Part shown: positions 1,701 to 23,267 of the stretch, piece after piece | Layout: each line of letters begins with the position of its first letter | Numbering within the stretch: the stretch's first letter is position 1 | Source: a virus | Reading direction: 5' to 3' (one strand) | DNA length: 23,267 nucleotides | Virus record (IMG/VR): IMGVR_UViG_3300032308_001110 | Span: 1 to 23,267 of that record | The notes under the pieces: generated by a model | Told to the model about the DNA's origin: nothing | The model's input: the letters and a program-made list of their open reading frames with translations, nothing else | Database searches by the model: none | Translations under genes and position numbers: made by a program

Positions 1701-2633
1701 TTAATATTGTCTAACCCACATTGTGCAGGCTACATGCCATGTTCCATCATATCCACCTGAATATGAACTACCGTGATAAAAAGGAATATTTGTAAACTCC
1801 TGATAACCACATAATGGGCGATCTATATTTGGAACGAAACTAGTATTTCGTCTTCCAGAATATGAAGAACCACCAGAAATTGTTGGGTTTGCTGTTTGTG
1901 GATATCCATCTGCTGTGGCTCTGGTATACCAACTATAAGTGTCTGTGAGAAAACATGTATTACCACCAGTTACATGTCTATACACATTACCAGATGCGCT
2001 ATTTCCACCCAGTGCTCTAACAAATTCAGTAGATAATCTTGCTACACCTCTTGATCCAGAAATAGTACTAGAACCAGAATCAGTCAAACCTTGTGTTGGA
2101 GAATTTAAAGTTCCGATTGCACCTTCACCCAAGGTATCTCCAAGAATTTCATATGTGCCATTAAAACTACCACCAGTGCCAGCATGACGATAATACAACA
2201 TCCACCCATCTGTATCAACATAGACTCGTTGCGCAGTTTGCAAAGAGCCAGGTGCACCAGTTAACCAATATAATCCAGCAGTAAACGATGCACCCTTTAG
2301 TGTAATAATATCAGAACCATATTGTGCTGCTCTTGCTTGAGTAGATCCATCTAAAGGTACATTCGGCAATGAAACCCATGCAGCAGACGCACTATCATAA
2401 TGTTTTGTAGCTTTATTGGTAGTGTCATACCAAAGCATACCATCATAGGGTGTGGGGCTAGTTGGAGCAGTCGCAGAATAAATTGGATTGGTTAACCATG
2501 TAGTTCCATTATAATATTCTATCGTTCCTGTAGAACTATTATGACGAACCATTCCTGCAGCTGCAGTTGGGCGACTAGCAGTACTGCTAGTCGGTAAGAC
2601 CATTCCAAATTCTTTTAGTGTAGTTGATGGCAT
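1701..2633 (-). CDS. Tandem fibre/adhesin paralog C, 310 residues
   Basis: This is the last of three tandem homologous fibre proteins. The N-terminus (MPSTTLKEFGMVLPTSS, then RPTAAAGMVRHNSSTG and IEYYNGTTW) is a small repeat domain common at phage fibre N-termini. The central part carries ARAAQYGSDIITLKGASF and DGWMLYYRHAGTGGSFN, whose Gly-rich DGW-x-hydrophobic-x-x-R pattern recalls fibrinogen-like or intelectin-like lectin domains (weak similarity by eye). It ends in YSGGYDGTWHV then WVRQY. The stretch at about residues 206-290 differs most from its two siblings, as expected of a receptor-contact region. It starts 3 nt after the preceding paralog's stop, within TATTAAAATATG, so it is probably translationally coupled. 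Receptor binding is inferred, not shown. Confidence 0.85.
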   Translation of the reverse strand: MPSTTLKEFGMVLPTSSTASRPTAAAGMVRHNSSTGTIEYYNGTTWLTNPIYSATAPTSPTPYDGMLWYDTTNKATKHYDSASAAWVSLPNVPLDGSTQARAAQYGSDIITLKGASFTAGLYWLTGAPGSLQTAQRVYVDTDGWMLYYRHAGTGGSFNGTYEILGDTLGEGAIGTLNSPTQGLTDSGSSTISGSRGVARLSTEFVRALGGNSASGNVYRHVTGGNTCFLTDTYSWYTRATADGYPQTANPTISGGSSYSGRRNTSFVPNIDRPLCGYQEFTNIPFYHGSSYSGGYDGTWHVACTMWVRQY

Positions 2634-2636
2634 ATT

Positions 2637-3578
2637 TTAATATTCCCTAACATAAATGGTTGTTGATACATGCCAGCCACCATTATATCCACCAGAGAAA
2701 CCATTTCCATGATAGTAAGGGATAGTGTAGATATTTCCTGGATAAGTCCCAAGTGGTCTAGCAGTTTCACCAGTGGCATAACCAGTATAAGTTCTTCTTC
2801 CAGCATATGAAGATCCGTAACTAATGGAACTGTCATAGCCAAAATTATCAGGAGCAGTTGATGCAGCTGTGGCATACCATTGAGCATCTGTGATATATGC
2901 GTTAGTTCCACCACAATTCATCCAAATAACATTAGTTGCTGCGTTTTCTCCTCCAAGTGCTCTAACAAAAGCAGTGGATAATCTTGCTACACCTCGTGAA
3001 CCAGCTGAAGTACTAGAACCTGTATCAGTCAATCCTTGAGATGGACTATACAATGTTCCGATTGCATCTTCCCCGTAATTGTCACCAATAAATTCATAAG
3101 TGCTATTGTAAGTACCACCAGTACCTGCCATTCTAAAAAATAACATCCATCCATCTGCATCTACATAAACTTGCTGTGGTGATTGCCCTGATGAAGTTTT
3201 ACCAGTTAACCAATAACGACCAGCAGTAAATGATCCACCCTTCAGTGCAATAATTTCTGATCCATATTGCGCTGCTCTTGCTTCTGTGGATCCATCTAAA
3301 GGTGCATTAGTCACAGTATACCATATACTATCTGTTGCATTCCATTCTTTATAAACATTAGCTGTTGTGTCAAACCACATCTGCCCAGCAGCTGGACTAC
3401 TTGGAGCGGTAGCACTAAATGGAGCATATTGAAGCCATGCTGCAGCTGTAGTATCATAATACTCAATAGAACCAGTAGTGCTATTATGACGAACCATTCC
3501 AGCTTCAGCAGTTGGTCTTGTTGCTTGACTACTTGTTGGTAAAACTAATGCGTCTTCTAATAATTTTGTTAATGGCAT
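2637..3578 (-). CDS. Tandem fibre/adhesin paralog B, 313 residues
   Basis: This middle copy of the three-gene array starts MPLTKLLEDALVLPTSS and shares the N-terminal fibre repeat (RPTAEAGMVRHNSTTG, IEYYDTTAAAW), the core AAQYGSEIIALKGGSF, DGWMLFFRMAGTGGTYN, GVARLSTAFVRALGG and the ending YSGGYNGGWHV with a terminal REY. It is closer to paralog A than to C: both carry NVIWMNCG followed by an AYITDAQW segment. No transmembrane segment or enzymatic motif is seen. It starts 3 nt after paralog A, again with the TATTAAAATATG junction. The likely role is a tail-tip adhesin or receptor-binding subunit, possibly in a hetero-oligomer with its siblings. The function is inferred from array structure, composition and position. 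Confidence 0.85.
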   Translation of the reverse strand: MPLTKLLEDALVLPTSSQATRPTAEAGMVRHNSTTGSIEYYDTTAAAWLQYAPFSATAPSSPAAGQMWFDTTANVYKEWNATDSIWYTVTNAPLDGSTEARAAQYGSEIIALKGGSFTAGRYWLTGKTSSGQSPQQVYVDADGWMLFFRMAGTGGTYNSTYEFIGDNYGEDAIGTLYSPSQGLTDTGSSTSAGSRGVARLSTAFVRALGGENAATNVIWMNCGGTNAYITDAQWYATAASTAPDNFGYDSSISYGSSYAGRRTYTGYATGETARPLGTYPGNIYTIPYYHGNGFSGGYNGGWHVSTTIYVREY

Positions 3579-3581
3579 ATT

Positions 3582-4517
3582 TTAATACTCCCTAACCCAA
3601 ATAGTTGTCGCTACATGCCAGCCACCATCATATCCACCAGAATAACTGTTCCCCTCATAATATGGAATTAATTGTAAATTTCCCCCATATGGATAAGTGC
3701 ATAGTGGTCTGCTGCTTTGGGTAGTATTATATCCAGTGATGCTTCTTCTTCCTGAATATGTAGTTCCAAAACTAATTGAATCATCCCAGCCATAGTTATC
3801 TGAAGTTGTAGATGTGGCATGCCATTGAGCATCAGTAATGTATGCAGTATTTGCACCACAATTCATCCAAATAACATTATTAGTAGCACTTTCTCCACCG
3901 AGTGCTCTAACAAAAGCAGTGGATAAACGAGCCATTCCTCTGGAACCAGCAGTAGTACTAGAACCAGAATCAGTCAAACCTTGCGTTGGAGAATTGAGAG
4001 TACCTACAGCTGCTTCACCTAAGCTGTCTCCAACAATTTCGTATGTTGGATTGTATGATCCACCAGTGCCAGCATGACGATAGAATAACATCCATCCGTC
4101 AGAATTAACATAAACTTGTCTTGCAGATTGTGCAGATGAAGTTTTACCAGTTAACCAATATAATCCTGGAGTGAATGATCCACCCTTCAGTGCAATAATT
4201 TCTGATCCATATTGTGCAGCTTTTGCAGAACTAGATCCATCTAACACAAGATTGCTCATATAGTACCAAGCTGCTTCTGTGCTACTATAATTTTTATATG
4301 CATGAACAGTTGTATCATACCAAATCATACCATTGGTTGGGCTAGAAGGAGCAGTTGCAGAATGAATAGCACTATTTCTCCATGCAGAATTTACTGAGTC
4401 ATAATATTCTAAAGATGTATTAGAACTACTATGTCGCAACATTCCTGCTTCTGCAGTTGGACGAGTACCACTGGAAGGAAGTGTTGTAGCGTGTTCGCCT
4501 AATATTGTATTAGCCAA
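3582..4517 (-). CDS. Tandem fibre/adhesin paralog A with TTG start, 311 residues
   Basis: This is the first of three tandem homologous fibre proteins. The start codon is TTG (4517-4515), immediately after the TAA of the S74 fibre gene. A strong AAGGGGAG Shine-Dalgarno sequence is embedded in that gene's last codons. The start is supported by alignment of the N-terminus MANTILGEHATTLPSSG with MPLTKLLEDALVLPTSS and MPSTTLKEFGMVLPTSS in the siblings. Core motifs are RPTAEAGMLRHSSSN, AAQYGSEIIALKGGSF, DGWMLFYRHAGTGGSYN, GMARLSTAFVRALGG and YSGGYDGGWHV with final REY. The DGW core suggests a lectin-like domain (weak). It is probably a receptor-binding fibre subunit. TTG may lower its expression relative to its neighbours, but the strong ribosome site could compensate. 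Confidence 0.85.
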   Translation of the reverse strand: MANTILGEHATTLPSSGTRPTAEAGMLRHSSSNTSLEYYDSVNSAWRNSAIHSATAPSSPTNGMIWYDTTVHAYKNYSSTEAAWYYMSNLVLDGSSSAKAAQYGSEIIALKGGSFTPGLYWLTGKTSSAQSARQVYVNSDGWMLFYRHAGTGGSYNPTYEIVGDSLGEAAVGTLNSPTQGLTDSGSSTTAGSRGMARLSTAFVRALGGESATNNVIWMNCGANTAYITDAQWHATSTTSDNYGWDDSISFGTTYSGRRSITGYNTTQSSRPLCTYPYGGNLQLIPYYEGNSYSGGYDGGWHVATTIWVREY

Positions 4518-5423
4518 TTATTTTCTCCCCTTTAATACTTTGATTTCTTCATTAAGTTCTTTAATAGCTTCAATTAATAATGGAACAAGTTTTTCATATT
4601 GAACAGTTTGGTAGTTTTCACCAGATCGGGAAATTTCCGTATTTTCATCAATTCTAACTAAGTCAAATGGTGCAGGTTTAACAGCTTCTGGAAGAACTAT
4701 TTTTACATCACCAGCCAAAACTCCAACTTGAGTTTCTTTACTAGAATATCCAAACGACTCAGCAATCTCATTTGCATTAAAAGTTACTCCACGGAGTGAC
4801 ATAACTTTTTCTAAAGCATTTGGAATAATTTGTATATTTGTTTTTAATCTTTCGTCAGAATACCAAGAAGTTATATTGTTCGCAGCACGAATTTCACCAG
4901 TCGTTCCAGAAGCTGCAACACCAATACCCAAAGAACCAAATTGTGGGTTTGATGTTGTACCAATATCCTGTGGAGTTGCAATAGTAATTGAACCACTACC
5001 ATTGGTAACAGTTATTCTATTTGTAGAACCTGTTAAAGTAGCTGAAGTATATCCACTACTAGCGTTACCAATTAAAAGAGTTCCGTTACTTGGTGTTGTA
5101 GTAATACCAGTACCACCAGAAGCGATAGGTAAAGTACCAGTGGTTAGAGCAGAAGTACTAGTAGCATAAACTGCACCACCATTAGTGAAACTTGTTAGTC
5201 CAGTTCCACCTCTAGTAGTGGCAATAGTCGTCGCACTCCAAGTACCAGTGGTAACTGTACCCAAAGTAACAAGATTAGAATTACCTGTATACGATGCTTC
5301 TAATTTATCAGTGTTTAAACTAATAAAATTATTATCAATTTCAGCGTTTGTTAGAGGGAGATTTTTCCTAGTGACACCACCTGTGCCAGTAGTTCCTGTT
5401 TCTCTAGTTGTAATCGAAGCCAT
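4518..5423 (-). CDS. Tail fibre with C-terminal intramolecular chaperone (peptidase S74) domain, 301 residues
   Basis: The N-terminus (MASITTRETGTTGTGGVTRK, then LPLTNAEIDNNFISLNTDKL) is a fibre attachment-type region. Residues about 50-180 are Gly/Thr/Ser-rich shaft repeats (ATTRGGTGLTSF, IASGGTGITTTPSNG). From about residue 187 comes WYSDERLKTNIQ followed by ALEKVMSLRGVTF, QVGVLAGDV, YEKLVPLLIEAIKELNEEI: the hallmark of the endosialidase-type intramolecular chaperone (peptidase S74). In that family the domain trimerises the fibre and releases itself at the conserved Ser of the SD-x-RLK motif (here S189, with K194 as likely partner). The C-terminus is a short coiled coil. A late promoter octamer lies 29 nt upstream and an AGGA ribosome site precedes the ATG, so this gene likely heads the fibre unit downstream of the enzyme cassette. 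Confidence 0.9.
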   Translation of the reverse strand: MASITTRETGTTGTGGVTRKNLPLTNAEIDNNFISLNTDKLEASYTGNSNLVTLGTVTTGTWSATTIATTRGGTGLTSFTNGGAVYATSTSALTTGTLPIASGGTGITTTPSNGTLLIGNASSGYTSATLTGSTNRITVTNGSGSITIATPQDIGTTSNPQFGSLGIGVAASGTTGEIRAANNITSWYSDERLKTNIQIIPNALEKVMSLRGVTFNANEIAESFGYSSKETQVGVLAGDVKIVLPEAVKPAPFDLVRIDENTEISRSGENYQTVQYEKLVPLLIEAIKELNEEIKVLKGRK

Positions 5424-5452: not shown

Positions 5453-5460
5453 TATTTATT
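5453..5460 (-). promoter_or_regulatory. Late promoter-like octamer AATAAATA before the S74 fibre gene
   Basis: The minus strand reads AATAAATA, matching the NATAAATA form of the late promoter of T4-like marine phages. It overlaps the stop codon of the oxygenase gene and sits 29 nt before the ATG at 5423, the same spacing as the other two gap promoters. An exact TATAAATA lies 62 bases further upstream inside the oxygenase gene and could serve as an alternative. Confidence 0.6.
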
Positions 5461-6181
5461 ATTTAGGAGTATTACAATACTGTTCGTAAGTTTGCATATA
5501 TTCTCCTTCATACCTATTTATAGATGATTCTAAAATACCTCTAACTTGAGGTTTCCTAGAATCAACATAAAAACGAACCATAATCATAGGTTCATCGCCA
5601 TAATTAAATGCATTATGGTAGTGATAGCTGTTTAGACAGTAAATTTTTCCAGGTTTATACCACTCTTCAAATACCTTAATTGGTTTTGTATAGTCTGAAC
5701 CCCTATAATCCATATAACTTATAAGACTAAATTTAGACTCTTTTGGCATTACTATCGGAAGATTCCAGACTGATATCCACTTAGGTTGTCCTGCTTCTTT
5801 AGCGTGGCTATGCCACCCTGCAGATCCACCTTTAGAAAATACCTCAATCCTAGCCAATAACTCACCACCACCAACAGACTGTAAAACACTATCTAAATAC
5901 GGACATAGTTTTATGGCATCGGTTTTAACAAAATCTCCGCTCCAAGGTTCAGCTGGATTTGAGCTAACAGTACCATCTGTGCTATACAATGCTATTGAAT
6001 CCCATTTATTTAAGTCATCAAGTTGCATGGTTTTATCAAAGGATAATGAACTTCGATATCCTTCTAACTTGTAGGGTAGATTTTCTATTTCCTGCAAAAT
6101 TAGATTATGATTAAATTCAATACCTAAGGGTAGGTGCGCGATTTCATTTAACTTATCCAATGTACTCTCCATCATAAGCAT
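5459..6181 (-). CDS. 2OG/Fe(II) oxygenase-like protein, Asp/Asn beta-hydroxylase type, copy 2, 240 residues
   Basis: The protein has the core order of the aspartyl/asparaginyl beta-hydroxylase fold: LLARIEVFSKGGSAGWHSH (H124, H126), a hydrophobic strand (WNLPIVMP), YKPGKIYCLNSYHYHNAFN (H187, H189, N190), then a late Arg in MIMVRFYVD (R203). In that family two histidines bind iron and an Arg binds 2-oxoglutarate; these residues are the likely equivalents. No acidic residue directly follows the first His in HxD form, which fits AspH-type rather than prolyl-hydroxylase-type enzymes. It is a tandem paralog of the upstream 237-residue gene (both share NxIxHLPL near the start, WHxH and YHYHN) and overlaps it by 29 nt. 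An alternative ATG lies at 6172. It likely hydroxylates a peptide or protein side chain; the target is unknown but may be a cassette product or virion protein. Confidence 0.75.
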   Translation of the reverse strand: MLMMESTLDKLNEIAHLPLGIEFNHNLILQEIENLPYKLEGYRSSLSFDKTMQLDDLNKWDSIALYSTDGTVSSNPAEPWSGDFVKTDAIKLCPYLDSVLQSVGGGELLARIEVFSKGGSAGWHSHAKEAGQPKWISVWNLPIVMPKESKFSLISYMDYRGSDYTKPIKVFEEWYKPGKIYCLNSYHYHNAFNYGDEPMIMVRFYVDSRKPQVRGILESSINRYEGEYMQTYEQYCNTPK

Positions 6182-6866
6182 TCACCGCAGTTTCAACTAA
6201 ATCATAAACTAAATCATCTCTAAGATCTGCAAAGAAACGAATAGTCAATCTAACTCCATCTTCATCAAAATTAAACACATTGTGGTAATGATAAGCATTG
6301 AACACAACTGGAGTTCCAGGAATATAGGTAGCCTCATATACCTTTGGATTACTGATACCAAAATCCATCCCTCTATACTCTTCATTTGCAATAACAGAAT
6401 ATTTAAACTTATTCGGCATAGTTATGGGCAACTGAATAATCATCATAGTTTTAGGGTGAAATAATTCAAACACATGATTGTGCCACCCCATCACAGTTCC
6501 TGGAAGAATCTCTTCAATTCTTGCTAACGCTTTACCACCACCCAGTTTTTCAACTATGTCATAAGTGTATGGAAGATATTCAGACAAACCAGTTTTTTGA
6601 AAATGTCCCCAGATTCTTTCTAACTCACCTGGACCAGCACCTTCTAAACGATCGCAGAAAATCTCACCATTGTAACTAAACAAAGATAGATTGTTCCACT
6701 TACTTTTCTCATGTCCATGATTTTCCTGCATTGTTGCAGCATAAGGCATCAATGGAAATGGACACTCACGGATTTCTTGTTCAATCCGTGCAGCATCATA
6801 AGTAAAATTCAACGGCAGATGAGGAATTCTATTTACTTGTTCAACTAAATTTTCTATATTTCTCAT
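6153..6866 (-). CDS. 2OG/Fe(II) oxygenase-like protein, Asp/Asn beta-hydroxylase type, copy 1, 237 residues
   Basis: After MRNIENLVEQVNRIPHLPL comes the oxygenase core: LARIEEILPGTVMGWHNH (H129, H131), MMIIQLPITMPNKFKYSVI, YIPGTPVVFNAYHYHNVFN (H193, H195, N196) and VRLTIRFFADLR (R206 or R210). The order His, strand, PG turn, H-x-x-N, Arg matches the Asp/Asn beta-hydroxylase family, where two His bind Fe(II) and Arg holds 2-oxoglutarate. It overlaps the end of the B12-type radical SAM gene by 26 nt and is followed by its paralog with a 29 nt overlap, so all three are likely co-translated. Cupin-fold proteins without oxygenase activity are the main alternative. The most plausible role is hydroxylation of a protein or peptide substrate, by analogy with oxygenases in peptide-modification clusters. 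Confidence 0.75.
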   Translation of the reverse strand: MRNIENLVEQVNRIPHLPLNFTYDAARIEQEIRECPFPLMPYAATMQENHGHEKSKWNNLSLFSYNGEIFCDRLEGAGPGELERIWGHFQKTGLSEYLPYTYDIVEKLGGGKALARIEEILPGTVMGWHNHVFELFHPKTMMIIQLPITMPNKFKYSVIANEEYRGMDFGISNPKVYEATYIPGTPVVFNAYHYHNVFNFDEDGVRLTIRFFADLRDDLVYDLVETAVNAYDGEYIG

Positions 6867-8745
6867 TAATAAAGTTTTCGTAGTATGTTCTTATCTGATA
6901 GGTTTTATCGTATTTTGGAGAGATTGAGTCTCTATATTTATTCAGTGATTCTTTAAACTGTTTAATAATATCATCTGGAACATCAAGTCCTAAGTCTTCA
7001 CCCACAGAACATAAAAACTCAATATATTCTTGTTCAAATACATAAACGCAAGATTTGTAGATATAAGAAAAATCTACAGATACATCGGTGAAGGGTAAGT
7101 TGAATTGTTTGTAGTCTACAACTTCTTTTCTGTTACCATCCATTAGATACTGCATCTGGTCGTTTAAGTTTTTCATTGCCAAAACATAATTGTTGGTAGA
7201 GGGAGAAATTATCTTCTCATAAATCTTTCTAAAGATTAACGAAGGAGTTTTTAGCTTGCCATTTTCTATATTGTGTTTTACAATTAAGTCTGTAAACCCT
7301 ATCATGGAAACATTCTCAAGGATCCAATAATTCATAAAGAAAAACTCTGTGAAGTCTTTTCTTGTGAATCCATTTGCTTCTACCACAAACTCTACATCTG
7401 ATGTAAACTTTGGATCTGCAGATATGTGATAATCTCCAAAGGTGTTCACATCGTCAAACGCATAGCTATTCATTCTTGATTTACCAATACAGATTTTTTC
7501 TGTTTTGATATTATGTTCTTTAATATAATCAGGAGAATATGCAGGAGAGTCTGGTAAGAATAACCAAAGGTATCTCTCTAAATTGTAACCATACTCATAC
7601 TGAATATCAACTTCATCATAGAAGTCATTTCGAGTATAACCTGGAAGACCCATCATAAACTCAAAGTCAGAACGAATTCCGTAAGTATCAAAAAGATACT
7701 GAGCAAACTCAAAATCTTTCTCACGAGGAATATCTGTTCGTTTAATATTCTTAAGGACTTCGTTATTTAAAGTTTGCAAACTAAGTTTGTATCGTTCAAC
7801 TACTTTGGCTCTTGCCAATGGCTCGATAGTTGCCCATCGTCTTTCCTGTTTAGACTTTGTCATACCATATATTTCTACATGGTTGGGTAAACCTGAATAT
7901 CCTTTAATCGTTTCAATATATTTGGAAACATCTTCATCTTCCAAATATATTCCATAGTTTGCATCAAGGATTTGAATCTGTTCAATACCAATCTGTGGTA
8001 TCCAATCCAAATCTTCTTTAATCATATCCAAAGATTTACGAATAACTTTACCACCGATACCACCACCCCACTCGCAGAACACACACTCGTATGGGCAACC
8101 ACGAGTCAATTCAATCGGTAAAACTAAAGGTACATTCCTGTCCATGGCAAGATTTTTACATTCAAAAAGAATGTCTTCATTACCTGCAATTAAACTTGAG
8201 GGAAAATCAAAATCAATCTTATTTGGACTTTTACCACGACCAGTTTTGTATATTGCAAACGAAACTTCTTTGTAGTTAATATCACCTTCTACAAATTGAT
8301 CAAGGATGTCAGTAATAAACCACTCACCGTAACTTGTTGGCTCACAGATAGCATCTACAAATTTATGTCTAATAAACCATCCAAGATTATTATGCGTAAT
8401 GTTAAGGTGTGGTCCACCAAGTAGAATAATACGATTTGGATTACGCTTCTTTAGTTCTTCAGCCACAGCCATAATAGCCATATGACTCCAAAGATAACTG
8501 GAGAATGCATAGATGTCCGACTCTTGCTTATCGTAATAATCTACAATCTGCTCAAATGTCCATCCCTCTAAATTAAGGATTGGTTTTTCCCAGATAACTC
8601 TATCTGAATATTTACCATGTTTAGTGTAGTAGTTCTTAAAGTTTAACCAATTGATTGGCAACCTTTGAATTGGAACACGAAGGTCAATATTAAGAAACGA
8701 GATTCTTATGGATTTTTTGAGTTGCTTCAACATAATCTGTTTCAC
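6841..8745 (-). CDS. B12-binding-type radical SAM enzyme, 634 residues
   Basis: Residues about 55-155 look like a cobalamin-binding Rossmann domain: DIYAFSSYLWSHMAIM, then NRIILLGGPHLNITHN and CEPTSYGEWFI. No DxHxxG is present, as in many B12 radical SAM enzymes. The radical SAM core begins at ELTRGCPYECVFCEWGG with C217, C221 and C224 for the 4Fe-4S cluster, and continues with LSLQTLNNEVLKNIKR and DFEFMMGLPGYTRNDF, typical of class B (B12) enzymes. The C-terminal 200 residues are less conserved in appearance. Such enzymes often methylate unactivated carbons or phosphinates, including in modified peptides, but other reactions are known. The ATG at 8745 overlaps the upstream radical SAM gene by 56 nt; a second ATG at 8733 is possible. 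The fold is clear; the substrate is unknown. Confidence 0.85.
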   Translation of the reverse strand: MKQIMLKQLKKSIRISFLNIDLRVPIQRLPINWLNFKNYYTKHGKYSDRVIWEKPILNLEGWTFEQIVDYYDKQESDIYAFSSYLWSHMAIMAVAEELKKRNPNRIILLGGPHLNITHNNLGWFIRHKFVDAICEPTSYGEWFITDILDQFVEGDINYKEVSFAIYKTGRGKSPNKIDFDFPSSLIAGNEDILFECKNLAMDRNVPLVLPIELTRGCPYECVFCEWGGGIGGKVIRKSLDMIKEDLDWIPQIGIEQIQILDANYGIYLEDEDVSKYIETIKGYSGLPNHVEIYGMTKSKQERRWATIEPLARAKVVERYKLSLQTLNNEVLKNIKRTDIPREKDFEFAQYLFDTYGIRSDFEFMMGLPGYTRNDFYDEVDIQYEYGYNLERYLWLFLPDSPAYSPDYIKEHNIKTEKICIGKSRMNSYAFDDVNTFGDYHISADPKFTSDVEFVVEANGFTRKDFTEFFFMNYWILENVSMIGFTDLIVKHNIENGKLKTPSLIFRKIYEKIISPSTNNYVLAMKNLNDQMQYLMDGNRKEVVDYKQFNLPFTDVSVDFSYIYKSCVYVFEQEYIEFLCSVGEDLGLDVPDDIIKQFKESLNKYRDSISPKYDKTYQIRTYYENFINEKYRKFS

Positions 8746-9736
8746 TGTTTATTTTAATAATTCTTGGAGCCAACTGTTTCATATGAACACAGTGCTCTTC
8801 AACCATATCATGGTGTTTTAAATCTTTAATTGTTTTCTTACAACCATTACAAATTGCAAACATTGGGCAACCGATACACTCATCTTTTAAAGAGTATAAC
8901 TCTGGGGCATTTTGTAGTGGTGTAATAAAACCACCTTCTTTAACTTCCTTTACAAAGTTAATAGGGTATTCTTTATCATCACCCATCGCTCCACAAGAGT
9001 AGTAATCACCCTCTGGATTCAATGCTCTAATGTGGTCATCGCAATTTCTTGCTTGAGGACAAACATTGGCAATATTGTTCAGACGAGTCATCATCTGTTT
9101 TGTATTGAATTCCCAATGCCAGAGATCTTTCTCGTATATTTCTATGTATGCTTCATATATTTTACTTAGGCGATATGGTTTATCCTGTTCGCCTGAAGCC
9201 ATAGCGTAATTGAGTTTACATTGAACATCCATCTTCTTGGCTAACTCTACATGTTTAATTGCATGCTTTTCATTCTCTTCAGAGATAACTGCAATAAAAC
9301 CTGGACGATAACCAATCTCTTTTAAGAATAAATCACTAACATCCCAAAAGTCTTTTTCAGTATAGACTCGATTCTCATTAATCTTACGACCAAACCCATA
9401 TTGAAAACTTGTGGTGACTCCGACTCTTGGGTGTTTGAACAAAGGTGTCCACATCTCTGGTTTCTTGTAGAATGCCCAGAGATTGGTCGTTAAACCTATT
9501 GTTGTTTGGAGATTGTGTTCCTCAATATACTGCAGAATTGCAAAGTAGTATTCTGGTTTCACCATCAATGGATCGCCACCATTGACGATAATTGTGTTTG
9601 TATTTGGGAATCTTTTTAGAAAGTCAAAAACATGCTGAAGATTAAGTGTACTGGCTTTGTCTTCTACGATTTTAGTCGATGAGCAAAACGAACACTTAAA
9701 GTTACACAGTTCCGTGGGTTTGATTATAAGTTCCAT
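8690..9736 (-). CDS. Radical SAM enzyme with SPASM-like C-terminus, 348 residues
   Basis: The protein starts directly with the radical SAM strand: MELIIKPTELCNFKCSFCSS, giving the CxxxCxxC motif C11, C15, C18. It then shows the SAM-binding IIVNGGDPLM (GGDP at 53-56) and GLTTNLW. The C-terminal third is Cys-rich: C226, C232, C248, then C287, C290, C296, C299, C316 in DECIGCPMFAICNGCK, consistent with a SPASM or twitch domain carrying auxiliary clusters. SPASM enzymes commonly modify ribosomal peptides or proteins. The start at 9736 overlaps the upstream gene by 35 nt but is required, because the first strand of the barrel begins at residue 2. It lies between the unknown paralog pair and the B12-type enzyme. 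It has no leader-recognition (RRE) domain that I can see. The substrate is unknown; the Cys-tailed 178-residue protein of the same cassette is a candidate. Confidence 0.88.
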   Translation of the reverse strand: MELIIKPTELCNFKCSFCSSTKIVEDKASTLNLQHVFDFLKRFPNTNTIIVNGGDPLMVKPEYYFAILQYIEEHNLQTTIGLTTNLWAFYKKPEMWTPLFKHPRVGVTTSFQYGFGRKINENRVYTEKDFWDVSDLFLKEIGYRPGFIAVISEENEKHAIKHVELAKKMDVQCKLNYAMASGEQDKPYRLSKIYEAYIEIYEKDLWHWEFNTKQMMTRLNNIANVCPQARNCDDHIRALNPEGDYYSCGAMGDDKEYPINFVKEVKEGGFITPLQNAPELYSLKDECIGCPMFAICNGCKKTIKDLKHHDMVEEHCVHMKQLAPRIIKINSETDYVEATQKIHKNLVS

Positions 9737-10688
9737 TTTTCACTTTATACTTATTAAGCCATGCTGTATTGTTTTGGTTTTTTAGAATCGTGTTCCAGAA
9801 AATAGGATTAACGGAATCAAAGTTAGAGTAGTTCGGAAATAGTAATTGAAATTCTATAGCAATCTCAGGATTTAGTAAACGAGTTCTAACAAACTCAGAT
9901 TTAGTCATAGTTAAAACAGGATCTAGAATATCTTGGTATTCTTCACTATTGTTCACTATTGTGAAGAAGTGTTTGTGATAGTCAAATCCAAATTTATCTT
10001 TAACTATTGGAACAACAGTATTTGGTAGAAACTCGTCAACTTTAAACTGATCAAGATATTCTTCTCGATATGCATCACTAGTCAAATTCTCTATGGTAAA
10101 CTCTGAATCAGACATAATAGCTGGAAGAGATTGTTCAGCGTATTTTACCCAAAATCCTGGAGATCCATCATACATTTCATTGACACGATCCGTACAATAA
10201 TCCAATGCGTCTTCGTCACCTCTAACTGAGTTTGCAAACGCAATTTCAACTCTGGTATATGTCAATGTAGATGAGAATGTAGATGCAGTATCAGTAGTCT
10301 TTAGGGTTTTTGGTAACTCAACAAACTCAACATCTCTATTTGTGAATGTTCCAATTCTGTAATTCTCTTTTAGTCTGTCGAACGAATATAACTCTTTAAC
10401 TGCATTAGTTTCTAGAACACCATTAAAGAAGTATGAGTACACATACATAAAGTTCTTAGTATCACAATAGATTATAGTTTTTGTATTTGAGTGATCTTGA
10501 TGAATCTCATTAAATAGGGTATCAAGTTGTTCGTCATCGATCTCTTCATATGAATGTAAAATATCATATGTAAGATGAACCATAGAATCACTGGATAGTT
10601 TTGGGTGTGAACCTATCCAAACTTGTTTGCTCTTTTCAAGAATACTATTTGTAGTTGATAGGTAACAATTGTCGAATAGGTATATCAT
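9702..10688 (-). CDS. Unknown protein, paralog of the adjacent 293-residue protein, 328 residues
   Basis: I do not recognise this family. The N-terminus MIYLFDNCYLSTTNSI resembles MLHLYNSCYVYPDAMF of the gene just upstream, and both have a strand of the form (T/F)IIYCD followed by an aromatic-rich helix (here TKTIIYCDTKNFMYVYSYFF). The C-terminal parts also look related (SEFVRTRLLNPEIAIEF here; EEFINDPKFLLLL there). The shared N-terminal half has an alternating beta/alpha look, possibly a Rossmann-like domain, with a Cys at residue 8 in both. No membrane segment or signal peptide is evident. Its ATG overlaps the upstream stop as ATGA, so the pair is translationally coupled. The position inside a radical SAM cassette suggests a partner, scaffold or substrate-handling role. 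This is inference only. Confidence 0.8.
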   Translation of the reverse strand: MIYLFDNCYLSTTNSILEKSKQVWIGSHPKLSSDSMVHLTYDILHSYEEIDDEQLDTLFNEIHQDHSNTKTIIYCDTKNFMYVYSYFFNGVLETNAVKELYSFDRLKENYRIGTFTNRDVEFVELPKTLKTTDTASTFSSTLTYTRVEIAFANSVRGDEDALDYCTDRVNEMYDGSPGFWVKYAEQSLPAIMSDSEFTIENLTSDAYREEYLDQFKVDEFLPNTVVPIVKDKFGFDYHKHFFTIVNNSEEYQDILDPVLTMTKSEFVRTRLLNPEIAIEFQLLFPNYSNFDSVNPIFWNTILKNQNNTAWLNKYKVKNGTYNQTHGTV

Positions 10689-11566
10689 GCTATTAAACCC
10701 AAATTTGTAATTTTTGATTGTGGTAATTTAAGTAGCCATCTAAGCAACCAAGTGTCTACTTTATCACTGGATAGTAGTAATAAAAATTTTGGGTCATTTA
10801 TGAATTCTTCAGTAACACCATCTTCAAAAAACTTTAAAATTAAAGAATCTGTAAAAATAGATCTATCTTTTCTCATTTCCATGTATAAATCTTTCATGGA
10901 AATAACTGTTCTAAATTGTTGGTTAAATGGATCTGTTGCCCAGCCATCTTCTTTTCTGGATAGGTAACATTGTCTTGCATCACCAAAGAATGAATATACA
11001 TAACGATTGATAAGTGCTTTTAAAATACCATCATAGTTATTTGGAACACCACATTTTCTATTAGCTATCTTCCATTCAATTCCTGCGTTTTCCCAAATCC
11101 AATATTGAGACATTGGAAATTTATCAACTGAAGACGGTGCGGTTAAATCAATAAACTTATCACCAAGATCGCTAATAATCTGTTTATTAGTAGAGTCAAT
11201 TAGTTTTGACTTTAATTTTAAACGAACACCAAATAGTTTTGCAAACTCAAGGAATAAAGATTCGTCAAAATTAAAGATATGCGATTTAATCTTTGCAGTA
11301 AAAAACTTGACTAGTGTTTCATCATCACAATAGATTATAAACTTCTCTTTATTACTGCAGACTGGTTCAACTAGATTACTATTAATAAAATCTTCATAGG
11401 TAGCGAATCGACCAAAGCACTGCTTTACTGCTACATTATTATAGTAAAAACTATTTTCGACTTGAGTGCCTAAAATAGCATGTTTTTGACCAACCACGAT
11501 ATAATCAGTGGAAGGATCAAACATTGCGTCTGGGTAGACATAACAAGAATTATAGAGATGTAGCAT
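10685..11566 (-). CDS. Unknown protein, first of a paralogous pair, 293 residues
   Basis: No family is recognised. The protein starts MLHLYNSCYVYPDAMFDP, has a predicted strand KFIIYCDDETLVKFF near residue 75, and a Trp/Tyr-rich middle (QYWIWENAGIEWKIANRKCG, then NRYVYSFFGDARQCYL). The C-terminus is helical and Leu-rich (DTWLLRWLLKLPQSK). It shares its N-terminal pattern and the IIYCD strand with the next gene, so the two probably arose by duplication and diverged strongly. The start overlaps the end of the 253-residue gene by 17 nt. There is no CxxxCxxC motif, so it is not itself a radical SAM enzyme. It is plausibly an accessory protein for the cassette enzymes; this rests on context alone. 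Confidence 0.8.
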   Translation of the reverse strand: MLHLYNSCYVYPDAMFDPSTDYIVVGQKHAILGTQVENSFYYNNVAVKQCFGRFATYEDFINSNLVEPVCSNKEKFIIYCDDETLVKFFTAKIKSHIFNFDESLFLEFAKLFGVRLKLKSKLIDSTNKQIISDLGDKFIDLTAPSSVDKFPMSQYWIWENAGIEWKIANRKCGVPNNYDGILKALINRYVYSFFGDARQCYLSRKEDGWATDPFNQQFRTVISMKDLYMEMRKDRSIFTDSLILKFFEDGVTEEFINDPKFLLLLSSDKVDTWLLRWLLKLPQSKITNLGLIA

Positions 11567-12311
11567 TTGTCTCTTCGTAGATAGATTGAAATTGTTCAGT
11601 GGTTAATGGTGTTTCTAACATAATTCTTAACAACGGAAAAATAAAACAGTTCTTCGATGTTATAAAGTTAATCAGAGTTTTACCTGAGTAAATCGGTCTA
11701 TCAAAATAGTGGTCGAAATACTTTATGTTATCAAACGATGGAACAGAACTATAATAGTGACAGTTGAATGTTATATTATCAAATAAATTTACAAATGTTT
11801 TTCCAATGTCTTGTTTTTCAGTGACAATATTATTTGTAATAAAATCACCCTGCTCTTCTTTATATACATTTAGGTTTTTAATTGCATATAATAAAACACC
11901 ATCCAATATTTCAGATAATTGTTTAATTAAATCTTTGTTCTGTTCTACATATTGTTGCACTTCATCATTAGATAAAATACATTGTTCTAGAACTGTTTTA
12001 TCATCTTCTGATTTATCAACCAAAGATAAATCGTATCCTCTAAAATAAAACAAACATTTAATTACAGTTGCTTCTAATTGATTAATATGACAAGTTGAAT
12101 TGTGTTTAATAAACTCACAAACTAATTCAGATCGTTCTTCGAAAGATACATCTGTTAAATTAATATTTAAAGATTCGTACTTTAAGTTACTCAAATATGT
12201 AACAAAGTTTTTAGCTTTAATTTTTGAATTAGCATAATCAATTTCAGGAGATTTAATATCTCCTGTTATAATACTTCTTAAAGTTTCAGAATCAAATGGT
12301 ATAGTGTACAT
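11550..12311 (-). CDS. Unknown cassette protein, 253 residues
   Basis: I chose the ATG at 12311 (MYTIPFDSETLRSIITG), which overlaps the stop of the Cys-tailed protein as TAATG. A longer frame from 12341 would reuse the codons of the Cys-His repeat out of frame and is unlikely. The protein is acidic to neutral and mainly helical in appearance, with scattered single cysteines and no known cofactor motif, membrane segment or signal peptide. The C-terminal region (FNCHYYSSVPSFDNIKYF, DRPIYSGKTLINF) is aromatic-rich. Its tight coupling to the candidate precursor suggests it may be made in fixed ratio with it, for example as a chaperone, leader-binding or scaffold partner. No family is recognised; function is unknown. 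Confidence 0.8.
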   Translation of the reverse strand: MYTIPFDSETLRSIITGDIKSPEIDYANSKIKAKNFVTYLSNLKYESLNINLTDVSFEERSELVCEFIKHNSTCHINQLEATVIKCLFYFRGYDLSLVDKSEDDKTVLEQCILSNDEVQQYVEQNKDLIKQLSEILDGVLLYAIKNLNVYKEEQGDFITNNIVTEKQDIGKTFVNLFDNITFNCHYYSSVPSFDNIKYFDHYFDRPIYSGKTLINFITSKNCFIFPLLRIMLETPLTTEQFQSIYEETNATSL

Positions 12312-12847
12312 TAAATGCTTCCGTGGCAAGATCCATGACAATTACTATGACAATAAAATTCTTCAATAGTGACTTGACTATTTCTATTGGTACTAATTGC
12401 AGTGGATAATGATGCCACAAATGCGTCTAATTCAGAAGCAGAAACAGTTCCATCTGCTGATGGTGGGGTTGTTCCAGCTAATGATACATCAAATGCTACA
12501 GCGTCATATGCTGCACTTAAATTAGTTATGTTAGAAGCATCAGATGATAATGACGCTCTAACATCACCTTGAATTTGATACCATTTTAATAATCGAACGA
12601 TTCTAATTCTAGATAATAATCTAGCGTATGCTCTAAAATTTGTAGTCAGAGTAGAAGCAGTTATATTAGTATCGGAAATATCACTTTCTAGCGTATGGGA
12701 ATAACCACCAGCACCACCGCCAGTAATATCTGTTTGAAAGGGTTGATTAGTACTATGCCACACAATACCAGTATTATATGTGCTCGATAACGCTGCCATC
12801 GCTTCAACGATGTTCGCTTTCGTTATATTATCGCCAGCTGTTGTCAT
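12311..12847 (-). CDS. Candidate RiPP-type or modifiable structural protein with CHxx-repeat tail, 178 residues
   Basis: The first 160 residues contain no cysteine and look like a small soluble or virion-type domain (MTTAGDNITKANIVEAMAAL; a Gly-rich TGGGAGGYSHTL loop; a basic helix RAYARLLSRIRIVRLLKWY; a Ser/Thr/Asp-rich region). The last 13 residues are three tandem Cys-His-x-x units, CHSN, CHGS, CHGS, plus Ile (C166, C170, C174). Such a Cys-rich repeat at the extreme C-terminus, directly downstream of and overlapping (20 nt) a SPASM radical SAM gene, is what a radical SAM-modified precursor looks like. An AAAGG ribosome site precedes the ATG. There is no double-Gly cleavage site just before the repeat and no transporter or protease nearby, so the tail may stay attached. 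A metal-binding tail on a structural protein is the main alternative. Confidence 0.8.
   Translation of the reverse strand: MTTAGDNITKANIVEAMAALSSTYNTGIVWHSTNQPFQTDITGGGAGGYSHTLESDISDTNITASTLTTNFRAYARLLSRIRIVRLLKWYQIQGDVRASLSSDASNITNLSAAYDAVAFDVSLAGTTPPSADGTVSASELDAFVASLSTAISTNRNSQVTIEEFYCHSNCHGSCHGSI
12314..12352 (-). repeat. Three tandem Cys-His-x-x codon units encoding the candidate core
   Basis: These 39 bases encode residues 166-178 of the 178-residue protein: C-H-S-N, C-H-G-S, C-H-G-S, I, directly before TAA. The last two tetrapeptides are identical but use different codons (TGT CAT GGA TCT against TGC CAC GGA AGC), so the protein repeat appears to be kept by selection rather than by recent DNA duplication. 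Confidence 0.85.
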
Positions 12848-13907
12848 TCTTTAACCTTTGCATTAGTGTTTTCGGTGCTGCACAGATATCTCCTTGCCAC
12901 TTCAATTGATGGCAGTCGCTATTACAGATATCAAATACATCACAGGTATAGCAACGAGGGTCTCTTTCTATCTCGCATGTAATGTTATTTATTCTTCCTC
13001 TGGCGGACAGTAGAGTTCTAATAGGTTGGAATATATCTCCAAATCCATTACCAACTGCAGCATTTGGACAACCAGCCACAGTTCCGTCGGCATTAATCGT
13101 AAAGATTTTTTGCTCACAATCTCTACATCGAACCCCACCATGTATACCTTTAGTCAAAGAAGAATATACACCTTCCAAGAGGACATCTTTATATTTAGGT
13201 TTTATTGTCTGATAGGTTTCATGCATTCTAACAAACCAGTCATCTTGATCTTTATTTGCAGGAAATATATGGGTATTTACCAGAGCCGAGCCATCATGGG
13301 TTAGTCGTTCAAACTGCACCCAATTAACACCTAGAGTATTGAGCCATAGAACTAACTCAGTGGTATCCATTTCCATTAATTGTTTATTCAGACTAATGTT
13401 TAGGGTGATGTTATGCCCTGCGTTTACTAGAGTTTGTAAATTCTTTCGCCAGAGTGCTTCTTGTTTATCATTCTCAAACCGAATACCCTTATCCCAAGAA
13501 GTGCAGAATCCATTCTTTAGAACAGTTCTGAAAAACTTCATGTGGTCTTCCGTTAAATTAAAACAGAGATTAGTCGAACACGACCAGTTAAGATTTGAAA
13601 ATAGTTTAGAAACCTTATCCCAGACATAGTACATATCATCTAGCGGAGCAAGGAATGGCTCTCCTCCATGAAATGTAATATTCCCACCATTAAAAGATGG
13701 GCATTCCTCGTGGAGTCGTTCAAACCACTCTACAGTATTATGGGGATTAAAGTATATCTTTTTGCCATTAACACCATTTGTAAAACAGTGTTGGCAGTTA
13801 AGTTGACAAGTCTCAGTGGTCTTAAGATAGACCACTAAGTCTTTTGGGATTAGTATATCTGAAAGAGATACATTTGTCTTATGAAAGACAATTGGATGAG
13901 TTATCAT
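12828..13907 (-). CDS. SPASM radical SAM peptide/protein maturase, 359 residues
   Basis: The radical SAM core begins VVYLKTTETCQLNCQHCFTN with C34, C38, C41 (CxxxCxxC), followed by NITFHGGEPFLAP (GGEP at 81-84) and NWSCSTNLCF. The C-terminal domain is a full SPASM-type cysteine set: C261 and C264 in GGVRCRDCEQ, C280 in DGTVAGCPN, then C311, C319, C322, C328, C332 and C342 (RCYTCDVFDICNSDCHQL). Anaerobic sulfatase-maturase and RiPP maturase families share this architecture, with auxiliary 4Fe-4S clusters that act on peptide substrates. It starts 6 nt after the stop of the 404-residue fibre gene and its end overlaps the Cys-tailed protein gene by 20 nt, so enzyme and likely substrate are co-translated. 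I infer it modifies the CHxx tail (thioether or C-C crosslink); the reaction is not determined. Confidence 0.9.
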   Translation of the reverse strand: MITHPIVFHKTNVSLSDILIPKDLVVYLKTTETCQLNCQHCFTNGVNGKKIYFNPHNTVEWFERLHEECPSFNGGNITFHGGEPFLAPLDDMYYVWDKVSKLFSNLNWSCSTNLCFNLTEDHMKFFRTVLKNGFCTSWDKGIRFENDKQEALWRKNLQTLVNAGHNITLNISLNKQLMEMDTTELVLWLNTLGVNWVQFERLTHDGSALVNTHIFPANKDQDDWFVRMHETYQTIKPKYKDVLLEGVYSSLTKGIHGGVRCRDCEQKIFTINADGTVAGCPNAAVGNGFGDIFQPIRTLLSARGRINNITCEIERDPRCYTCDVFDICNSDCHQLKWQGDICAAPKTLMQRLKNDNSWR

Positions 13908-13913
13908 GAATCA

Positions 13914-15128
13914 TTATAAAATTACACATTCAACTAATTTTTCAGAAATGTCTGAGTTTGATTCTAAAGCAATACCAATAACATCATTTGAATGTGCAAC
14001 ACCAGCAGAAGCTAAACCACCAGCAGAAGCGATGATTCGATCGCCTTTACGAATTGCTCCAATAATGCGAACTGGAACACGACCCTTAAGAGCGATAGCA
14101 GTACCACCTTCTAGGTCATCATTCATAATGTATGCAGGGTTAGCAGATACAACACCAATGGCACGACTACCCCAAGATGCAGCAGTAACTTCTGCATCAC
14201 CACCAACCATCACAACTGTACCAACTGCGTATTCGGCATCAGCAAGATATTTTTCTGCCAAGTCAGCGTAGCGAGCAGATGTAGAAGTACCATAAATTAC
14301 AGCAAATCTATTTGCAGATTGACCAATATCACCAGAACCATTAGCTCCAGTTTTAACGATATAATCTACAGATGGATTTGAAGAACCAGTAATTGTTGGA
14401 TTACCAGAGACTCCATCACCATTAGTGATAGAAATATTAGTACCAGCTGCAAGGCTTCTTGTTAATGCTGTACCTGCGGTATTTTTAACAAAGAAGCCAT
14501 GGGTAGTTATAGCTGCTAGTGCTGTTAAATTATTAGAGAATGGTTGAATGTCAGAACCAATAACTAAACCCAAGTTTGTTCTTGCTTGATTTACAGATGT
14601 AGCTGCAGTACCACCAGAAGCAATTGCCAAAGCAGTCGTTAGCGTTACTGTACCACCAGTTATAGTAACATTATTTGCAGCTTGTGTAGCCATGGTTCCT
14701 AAACCAAGAGCAGTTCTTGCTGCAGTATCAGTCGTAGCACCAGTACCACCATTATTAATAGCAACAACACCACTAACATTAGTTGCATTACCAGTCACAG
14801 TTCCAGTTAGATTACCAGTAACATTACCAGTAACATTACCAACCAAATTAGCAGTAATAATATTTGCAGAAAAATTACCAGAAGATCTAATCACAACAGA
14901 ATTTCCACTAGTATCATTAACGCTAGTGTTTAAACCATCCAGTAAGTCGGCATCCAAACCAGAACCTGTTCCATCAACTGTTTTAATCTTTGTAAGAACA
15001 TCAGATGCAGTATAGTTAGTGGCAGTTAATTTTGTCCCAACCTCAGTGTTTAGGTTATCAAAGTTAGCGTCTGCCTCTGCAATCGTTAGCGGACTGCCTT
15101 TTACACTGCGAAGTACGATTGTTGCCAT
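13914..15128 (-). CDS. Tail fibre with C-terminal ADLAEKY-type cleavage/trimerisation domain, 404 residues
   Basis: The N-terminus MATIVLRSVKGSPLTIAEAD and NFDNLNTEVGTKL is a fibre attachment region related to that of the S74 fibre at 4518-5423. Residues 98-119 are a TGN/TGT repeat (GNVTGNVTGNLTGTVTGN), followed by INNGGTGATTDTAARTALGLGT, a classic tail-fibre repeat. The C-terminal 120 residues (ARYADLAEKYLADAEYAVGT, VGGDAEVTAASWGSRAIGVV, NPAYIMND, IALKGRVPVRIIG, KGDRIIAS) form the ADLAEKY domain found at the end of many T4-like marine phage structural proteins, resembling the peptidase G2/IMC autoproteolytic family. It starts as TAATG with the preceding 76-residue gene, with an AAGGG ribosome site. 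It ends 7 bases before the radical SAM cassette. Role as virion fibre is well supported by composition; attachment site unknown. Confidence 0.88.
   Translation of the reverse strand: MATIVLRSVKGSPLTIAEADANFDNLNTEVGTKLTATNYTASDVLTKIKTVDGTGSGLDADLLDGLNTSVNDTSGNSVVIRSSGNFSANIITANLVGNVTGNVTGNLTGTVTGNATNVSGVVAINNGGTGATTDTAARTALGLGTMATQAANNVTITGGTVTLTTALAIASGGTAATSVNQARTNLGLVIGSDIQPFSNNLTALAAITTHGFFVKNTAGTALTRSLAAGTNISITNGDGVSGNPTITGSSNPSVDYIVKTGANGSGDIGQSANRFAVIYGTSTSARYADLAEKYLADAEYAVGTVVMVGGDAEVTAASWGSRAIGVVSANPAYIMNDDLEGGTAIALKGRVPVRIIGAIRKGDRIIASAGGLASAGVAHSNDVIGIALESNSDISEKLVECVIL
14772..14837 (-). repeat. TGN/TGT tandem repeat in fibre shaft
   Basis: Short in-frame repeats of the unit Gly-Asn-Val-Thr (variants Gly-Asn-Leu-Thr, Gly-Thr-Val-Thr, Gly-Asn-Ala-Thr) encode the shaft segment of the 404-residue fibre. 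At the DNA level the plus strand shows repeated ATTACCAGTAAC-like units, which could vary in number by slippage. Confidence 0.75.
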
Positions 15129-21737: not shown

Positions 21738-23267
21738 TTAGAATCTGATAACTGTTCTTAAAGTAACTGTTTCATCAGCTGAAGGTGTAAACCCAGCTTT
21801 GTTATCAATAAACATTAACTGACCAGAATATTTATCTATGGTTGGAGAACCCACTGATGTTATACTAAAAGTATATCCATCAGCATTTGAAAAAGTATCA
21901 TTGACTAACGGTATGTCGTTATCTAATGATTGCAGCAATGCACTAGTCTCAGAAGAAGCCACCACACGATATCTTCTATCAAAAGGATCACCACCAATAG
22001 TTCTTGTGACTGTTACATCAGTATCTCTTGGGAATTGCGTAGTGTTAACTGATGCTTGAACAATAAAACATCCTGAGCCAATAGTTCCTTGGAATCTTTG
22101 GTCAGAGTTATACTGATTTGGGTTTTTAATAATACCTAACTGACGATAGTCGTTATTTACAGAAACACCCTGATTTAAGTCAGTTGATACATTGCTATAA
22201 AACATTAAAGTTCGGGCAAATAACTCATTTGGTGCATTTTTACCATGACCACCAAAAGGAGGCATAATTGCTCTAAGGTTGGCTCCATATCCGTTACCTG
22301 TTACAACAACATTGGCGAAGGAATAATTTTGTCCTGGATTTGTAATATTAATTTTAGTAATTTTCCCAGATGCTGAATCAAGAGTAGCAGTGGCTGTAGC
22401 ACCTGTTCCATCACCTTGTATTTCAATATCTGCCACACCGTAACCATATCCACCAGAAATAATTTTTATGGCATTAATAGTTCCAGGAGAAGTTAAAATT
22501 TCATTATTTGCCTGAAGTGATTGAATTGTACCAATATTAAGATCAGCTGCTAATGCAGCATTAGTTCCATCACCAGTAACTGCAATAGTTGCAGTTGAAT
22601 ATCCGATACCTGCATTCTCAACAATAACTGCAACTATTTGACCACCCTCAATTACTGGTAGCAATTTTGCTTCAGATTTTGCTGTTAGAAAGGATAATTC
22701 TGCTGCAGCAGTTCCTGCTCGACCAGCATCAGTGATAGTAATAGCAGGTGCTGCGGCATAACCAGCTCCAAATTTACGAGCAACTTCGCCTGATGCTGGG
22801 ACACCTGCATATGTTAATGCAGCGGGAACACCAAGATATAATAAATCAGCAGTTCCATTAGTTACAGTTCCAGTAGTATGTGACGGAACAGTAGAAGCAT
22901 GCGTTGTGCCAGCAGTTGTAACTTTATATAATCTACCAGAAACATGGACAGTGCTGTTTAATGTCACTGCAGTTGATGCTGCAAAAGCTGGAGAGTTTAT
23001 TGCTGTTCCAGATGTATGAGATGGTGCCACTGAGCCAAAAAAACCAGCAGTAGATACAGTGTATAATCTTCCAGAATGAAAATATTGTTCACCGATTAAT
23101 ACTGGTGATAACGCACTCCATGCAGTTCCAAAGGTTACTGTTGGATCAGTAGTGTAATTATCACCTTTATTTGATATAGTACAAAATAATATTGAACCAG
23201 AACTCATTTTTGCGGTGGCGACTGCACCCGAACCACCACCACCAGAAAATGTTATTGCTGGAGCAGA
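21738..23267 (-). CDS. 8: gp8-like baseplate wedge protein, 5'-truncated by the window edge
   Basis: The frame is open to the right edge, beyond the first in-window ATG at 23207 (upstream codons read SAPAITFSGGGGSGAVATAK), so the true start lies outside. The core motif at about residues 315-360 from that ATG (MPPFGGHGKNAPNELFARTL, then VNNDYRQLGIIKNPNQYN) matches the GHG...EL...NDFRQ.G.I.NP pattern of T4 gp8, and the ending YSGQLMFIDNKAGFTPSADE then TVTLRTVIRF matches the family's closing (I)(E/D)N...R..DQ....L.I.F. Two N-terminal modules (SGRLYTVSTAG, PSHTSG; SGRLYKVTTAG, PSHTTG) and several Gly-rich GYG...GDGTGATA repeats are extra insertions, as common in marine phages. In T4, gp8 is a baseplate wedge subunit. 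Confidence is good on family, moderate on the exact role. Confidence 0.82.
   Translation of the reverse strand, partial: SAPAITFSGGGGSGAVATAKMSSGSILFCTISNKGDNYTTDPTVTFGTAWSALSPVLIGEQYFHSGRLYTVSTAGFFGSVAPSHTSGTAINSPAFAASTAVTLNSTVHVSGRLYKVTTAGTTHASTVPSHTTGTVTNGTADLLYLGVPAALTYAGVPASGEVARKFGAGYAAAPAITITDAGRAGTAAAELSFLTAKSEAKLLPVIEGGQIVAVIVENAGIGYSTATIAVTGDGTNAALAADLNIGTIQSLQANNEILTSPGTINAIKIISGGYGYGVADIEIQGDGTGATATATLDSASGKITKINITNPGQNYSFANVVVTGNGYGANLRAIMPPFGGHGKNAPNELFARTLMFYSNVSTDLNQGVSVNNDYRQLGIIKNPNQYNSDQRFQGTIGSGCFIVQASVNTTQFPRDTDVTVTRTIGGDPFDRRYRVVASSETSALLQSLDNDIPLVNDTFSNADGYTFSITSVGSPTIDKYSGQLMFIDNKAGFTPSADETVTLRTVIRF

Follow-up and report, generated by a model that had tools for sequence, protein, structure and literature searches.

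Why does a virus carry, in its tail gene region, a radical SAM enzyme whose gene runs into that of a small protein ending in three Cys-His units? The locus lies in the viral record IMGVR_UViG_3300032308_001110, the whole of which (23,267 nucleotides) is the window analysed here; the cassette is on its minus strand (Table 1). A first-pass annotation had described a SPASM radical SAM gene followed, with a 20-nucleotide overlap, by a 178-residue protein whose only cysteines lie in a CHSN-CHGS-CHGS tail. Both open reading frames (rSAM1 and the CH-tail protein) were confirmed where it had placed them, on the same strand and sharing 20 nucleotides, and the second ends in EEFYCHSNCHGSCHGSI and has exactly three Cys, all within the tail. 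The stop codon of the CH-tail gene overlaps in turn the start of the next gene (TAATG), encoding a partner of about 253 residues. The cassette is bracketed by a G2-like and an S74 fibre gene, with a baseplate-wedge-like gene upstream. This set of radical enzymes occurs in many large phages and in some bacteria of the predatory Bdellovibrio group, nearly always together with a small fibre-associated protein that ends in three Cys-His-x-Ser units; the association suggests a chemical remodelling, after synthesis, of the tip with which a virus tail contacts a surface.

Table 1. Features of the window, with coordinates, strand and the basis of each assignment.
Feature	Coordinates	Strand	Basis
rSAM1, 359-aa radical SAM/SPASM enzyme	12828..13907	-	phrog_1802 4.4e-55; CQLNCQHC; SPASM Cys pattern
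CH-tail protein, 178 aa, proposed substrate	12311..12847	-	phrog_35144 1.4e-5 (C-terminal part)
Tail CHSN-CHGS-CHGS-I, proposed modification site	12314..12352	-	conservation; low-confidence, unstructured in model
Core partner, ~253 aa, proposed adaptor/chaperone	11550..12311	-	family in 155 fetched loci; model pLDDT 92
293-aa protein, cassette-conserved family	10685..11566	-	relatives in 102 loci
328-aa protein, distant relative of 293-aa protein	9702..10688	-	profiles of the two cross-hit
rSAM2, second radical SAM, SPASM-like C-terminus	8690..9736	-	profile searches
B12-binding-domain radical SAM protein, KedN5-like (below cut-off)	6841..8745	-	window clade and some others
Weak 2OG-Fe(II) oxygenase-like protein 1	6153..6866	-	PF13759 E 0.034, below cut-off
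Paralogue of 2OG-Fe(II) oxygenase-like protein 1	5459..6181	-	similarity to 6153..6866 protein
Tail-fibre protein, Peptidase_G2-like C-terminus (intramolecular chaperone-like, weak match)	13914..15128	-	upstream neighbour of cassette
Tail-fibre protein with Peptidase_S74 intramolecular chaperone domain	4518..5423	-	PF13884 3.6e-13; other end of cassette
Baseplate wedge-like protein, marks tail/baseplate region	21738..23267	-	phrog_438 1.1e-38

Could the tail be a fortuitous motif? In the clade of the window (20 distinct homologues), five of the six Cys/His codons vary synonymously without a single residue change, and the amino acid varies in 122 of the 170 body columns. The tail is thus under strong purifying selection, and on this record of substitutions the motif is far beyond chance. 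Within much of this clade rSAM1 shares about 95% identity, against about 60-71% for the CH-tail protein. Altogether, 124 distinct proteins were found with three C-terminal CHx[S/N] units, usually followed by RGRR. Apart from the six Cys/His and R82, no column is invariant in an alignment of 53 sequences that reaches down to 20-30% identity, although these homologues were picked by their tail, so that the Cys/His invariance is not independent. The independent evidence is therefore the S or N at the fourth position of the units (101, 103 and 100 of 105, in order) and the R-x-R-R end, which about 90 of 105 tail proteins have. The bodies of the first 82 tail proteins fall into 17 clusters at 40% identity, and the tail is common to all.

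In the structure model of the window protein, a folded alpha/beta body of about 165 residues (mean pLDDT 82) is followed by a flexible, unstructured C-terminal tail of low confidence. The body has no PDB match in Foldseek and hence no fold-based function. Domains of similar predicted fold occur in three proteins of 500-660 residues from Myoviridae sp. ctijX18 (BFVD A0A8S5USJ7, A0A8S5USJ8 and A0A8S5USV2; Foldseek prob 0.93-0.99), in which tails were not seen. Variants with five CHxx units are present on two large phage contigs (L172 and L271), and a 127-residue type of tail protein, encoded by twin genes, has no match in named phages. A heme-c motif was rejected by inspection, the spacing of the tail being CxxxCH and not CxxCH.

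Does the tail depend on the enzyme? A DNA pattern scan for the tail only, blind to rSAM1, matched at least 120 viral stretches. The 120 matches listed comprise 32 loci with a proper C-terminal tail and 88 other pattern matches, and among them rSAM1 was found in the fetched stretch of 23/32 and 1/88, respectively (Fisher p 2e-16). The single case among the 88 (L143) is a true variant with internal CH units. A whole-contig search located the enzyme elsewhere on the contig for eight of the nine remaining tail loci; in several of these the tail gene is present as two copies side by side, at a great distance from rSAM1. Among the matches listed, 31 of 32 tail contigs thus encode rSAM1, many kilobases distant in some lineages, so that the search for tails lacking a radical SAM gene, which the first-pass annotation had put forward as a check, favours its proposal that the tail is the substrate. 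The sole exception among them (L116) is a 24-kb fragment; L122 also lacks rSAM1, has a different motif and was not counted as a member. In the reverse direction, 95 of the 111 rSAM1 loci with downstream room have the tail and 8 have a variant such as CHGNFPPPCHGSRGRR. An apparent miss on a 151-kb contig (L074) seems, by its neighbours, to be on the same contig as the twin genes of L182, whose contig is of equal size, and for L238 and L239 the tail genes lie at separate loci of the respective genomes (L295 and L306). The substrate assignment is strong, and rSAM1 very likely modifies the CHx[S/N] units.

Alternatively, the Cys-His units might bind Fe or Zn within an oligomeric fibre tip while the radical SAM enzymes act elsewhere. 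Cys and His are classic ligands, the HxH motifs of the T4 gp37 tip coordinate iron, and the tail is C-terminal and adjoins fibre genes. Yet tail and enzyme co-occur even where they are unlinked, their genes overlap in the window, and metal binding needs neither the conserved Ser/Asn at position 4 nor RxRR; we consider this explanation improbable.

The rSAM1 CxxxCxxC motif (C34, C38 and C41) is invariant in 14 divergent homologues, and so is the complete 7-Cys SPASM pattern (C264-x10-G275-x4-C280, C319-x2-C322-x5-C328-x3-C332 and C342; plus C261). Against the SPASM domain model TIGR04085, the window enzyme scores 22.9 bits for a cut-off of 27, while the enzymes of L226 and L088 score above it. 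With both Cys motifs, rSAM1 has the hallmarks of a radical SAM/SPASM enzyme. It has no N-terminal extension of RRE size and lies below every curated cut-off, the nearest models being DarE, DynA, PapB and the anaerobic sulfatase maturase; the last of these gives the L226 enzyme its highest score. Together these four account for ether and C-C crosslinks as well as thioethers and formylglycine. Since the nearest models differ in chemistry, any of these products is possible for the tail. A Cys thioether or Cys/Ser-His crosslinks seem the most plausible; formylglycine is also possible, given that some members have the anaerobic sulfatase maturase as one of their nearest characterised models. The cassette shares with these SPASM maturases the radical SAM core, the auxiliary-cluster Cys and a C-terminal substrate motif encoded next door, but its enzymes fall far below the curated cut-offs and its substrate is folded and fibre-associated.

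The His-Xaa-Ser system (HxsA/HxsB/HxsC) also has tandem C-terminal His-x-Ser units beside two radical SAM enzymes, whereas each CH-tail unit has an added Cys, the end is RxRR and the setting is a fibre cluster. The NCBIfam results for tail proteins, rSAM1 and rSAM2 speak against membership of this system: the CH-tail proteins have no NCBIfam match, no Hxs model is among the rSAM1 matches listed, and rSAM2 scores 33.6 bits against the HxsC model (cut-off 267.9).

The gene pair of the first-pass annotation exists, but the description is too narrow, as the pair belongs to a multi-enzyme cassette. The conserved core consists of rSAM1, the tail protein, the partner of about 250 residues and a second radical SAM enzyme, often with more radical SAM proteins and 2OG oxygenases, and lies next to tail-fibre/baseplate genes. 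rSAM2 accompanies rSAM1 in each of the seven named phage records that have the latter. The jumbo phages Atu_ph07, Phosso, FLC6, DT01 and SURPRISE13 all carry the pair and extra radical SAM genes, several with oxygenases. In the window, the two paralogous proteins are only weakly 2OG-oxygenase-like. The core partner, despite its confidently predicted fold, has neither a Pfam match nor a significant Foldseek PDB match, and its identification as an RRE finds no support. Several additional radical SAM-like genes follow the CH-tail genes of L127, L130 and L193 (single in L130, twin in the other two). In Burkholderia jumbo phages, two dihydrofolate reductase genes lie within the radical SAM cluster (L088:16310-17523 and L090:14394-15571). 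The additional radical SAM enzymes may act on other substrates.

Where does the CH-tail protein end up? In phages, most of the contexts inspected belong to a tail or baseplate region or have fibre genes nearby. A G2-type fibre gene lies no more than 2.5 kb upstream of 68 of 104 testable tail genes, and fibre chaperone neighbours are missing from some lineages. Following the S74 fibre gene of the window (1701-4517) are three tandem, mutually similar proteins of about 310 residues with GGYDGxWHV...WVREY ends, possibly alternative host-recognition proteins. For Atu_ph07, a virion mass spectrometry study reports that gene clusters including CDS 170-215 supply most virion proteins (Attai et al., 2018; PMC6102473). 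The CH-tail homologue of this phage is gp170, the boundary gene of that cluster, whose other edge is gp215, the major capsid protein (numbering checked against five named genes: gp198, gp204, gp215, gp221 and gp227). By Foldseek, the window model matches a protein of Atu_ph07 with 296 residues, as many as gp170 has (E 2.6e-5, prob 1.00). We infer from its position at the cluster boundary that gp170 is a virion protein. At L143:2489-3433 (-), a natural fusion joins a four-unit CH protein to a Peptidase_S74 chaperone domain, with CHTSCHSSCHDSCHGD just before the S74 cleavage motif SDERLK. S74 domains in fibre tips self-cleave at that serine (PMC10769870); the cut would fall after, not before, the CH units, which would be left near the new C-terminus. 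The gene of the CH-tail protein is thus placed amid tail fibre genes or joined to one, and a virion location is well supported but partly inferred.

These observations bear on the 'RiPP-type' label of the first-pass annotation. In a classical RiPP, the C-terminal tail would be cut off and released as a modified antibacterial, signalling or superinfection-exclusion peptide. The pair does look like a ribosomal precursor with a conserved C-terminal core beside its maturase, the variable body adds to the likeness to precursor architecture, and rSAM1 resembles the peptide maturases DynA, PapB and DarE, at low score. However, the body is predicted to be a folded domain and not a short leader, the cassettes inspected showed no recognisable dedicated peptidase or exporter, gp170 marks a virion cluster and the S74 fusion ties CH units to a fibre chaperone. 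A released peptide is unlikely as the product, and less likely than a modified structural fibre-tip protein. That the CH-tail protein is instead a small enzyme subunit, in which the radical SAM enzymes build a redox or electrophilic cofactor, is very improbable: SPASM enzymes do modify whole proteins (quinohemoprotein amine dehydrogenase, sulfatases) and the L226 enzyme scores best as a sulfatase maturase, but the body is poorly conserved, the modelled motif lies in a flexible terminus and not in a folded pocket, and no companion oxidoreductase subunit was seen.

The first-pass annotation had called the pair phage-encoded; is the cassette confined to phages? Bdellovibrionota bins account for most of the rSAM1 genes found when bacterial genomes were scanned, and of 291 Bdellovibrionota genomes sampled, 16 carry the enzyme, most of which had already been found. 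These loci come mostly from metagenome-assembled genomes, and the source bacteria are possible predators; the bacterial tail scan used a pattern with a fixed CGN codon, though Arg is often AGR. Some contigs look clearly chromosomal, with ribosomal protein S20, FeoB, HPF and TlyA-like neighbours (recognised by eye), which rules out a phage-only pair. The bacterial cassette adjoins a protein with a prepilin-like N-terminus and an S74 chaperone (PF13884 4.6e-17; PF07963 0.004, below cut-off). Beside the prepilin-S74 gene lies that of a conserved protein of about 200 residues ending in GRHWVK[IV]K, with no Pfam match (L226:6934-7563 (-), L233:366-953 (-) and relatives). In the tree, bacterial rows are scattered among phage rows, forcing at least five changes, so the cassette has probably moved between phages and bacteria; phage contigs binned with their host may account for a few bacterial rows.

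How might the parts work together? We propose that rSAM1 carries out an oxidative modification of all three Cys-His-x-Ser units, which lie in the flexible end of the CH-tail protein, with the core partner probably presenting the substrate or assisting. rSAM2 and the other radical SAM and oxygenase genes would add or finish further modifications. The matured protein would be built into the virion beside chaperone-dependent tail fibres, which would place the modified tail at the point of contact with the host cell; in Bdellovibrionota, the same cassette would be paired with the prepilin-S74 fibre. As a whole, the cassette probably serves the maturation of a fibre or tail-tip protein, of a virion or a pilus, that touches another bacterium. 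Taken part by part, the mature product is likely a structural tip protein, and the chances are about even that it acts in contact with another cell. More tentatively, and with the odds somewhat against it, a mobile cassette common to phages and Bdellovibrionota might chemically arm the fibre tip for binding, perhaps covalent, to the surface of another bacterium. Such arming, equally tentative, might crosslink the tip into a rigid knob or create a reactive group, and the product might be the first radical-SAM-matured viral adhesin.

Two known systems offer partial parallels. In some T-even phages, gp38 sits on gp37. There, too, the gene of a small protein, here a proposed tip, follows that of a chaperone-dependent fibre; the likeness shown is one of arrangement, and gp38 is not known to undergo radical SAM maturation. 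The MAT fibres of Bdellovibrio are S74-terminated, phage-fibre-like proteins of predatory bacteria involved in prey contact (PMC10769870), whereas in the bacterial loci described here a prepilin-like protein bears the S74 domain, next to a CH-tail protein with its radical SAM cassette; the words radical and pilin are absent from the main text of that paper. On radical SAM genes and phage tails, the literature found holds only passing gene annotations: they are merely listed for FLC6 (PMC8066314) and S13 (PMC11898562), and radical SAM gene cassettes are mentioned in the host-recognition region of pelagimyophages (PMC7029224). The CH-tail motif was found in no paper searched, most subscription journals and preprints lying outside the reach of the search. 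As far as the searches reach, novelty lies in the target and the setting, within a known class of chemistry.

In each cassette, several uncharacterised radical enzymes come with a defined substrate, and the tail is a sharp and cheap test object: a single C-terminal peptide of exact mass, for which cultured carrier phages exist. Known targets of radical SAM maturation are peptides and enzyme cofactors. If the proposal is true, a widespread form of it that uses several enzymes and has a tip protein of a virion or pilus as its target would be a new role for radical SAM chemistry, and would add a new layer to the way in which phages, and perhaps predatory bacteria, make contact with their targets.
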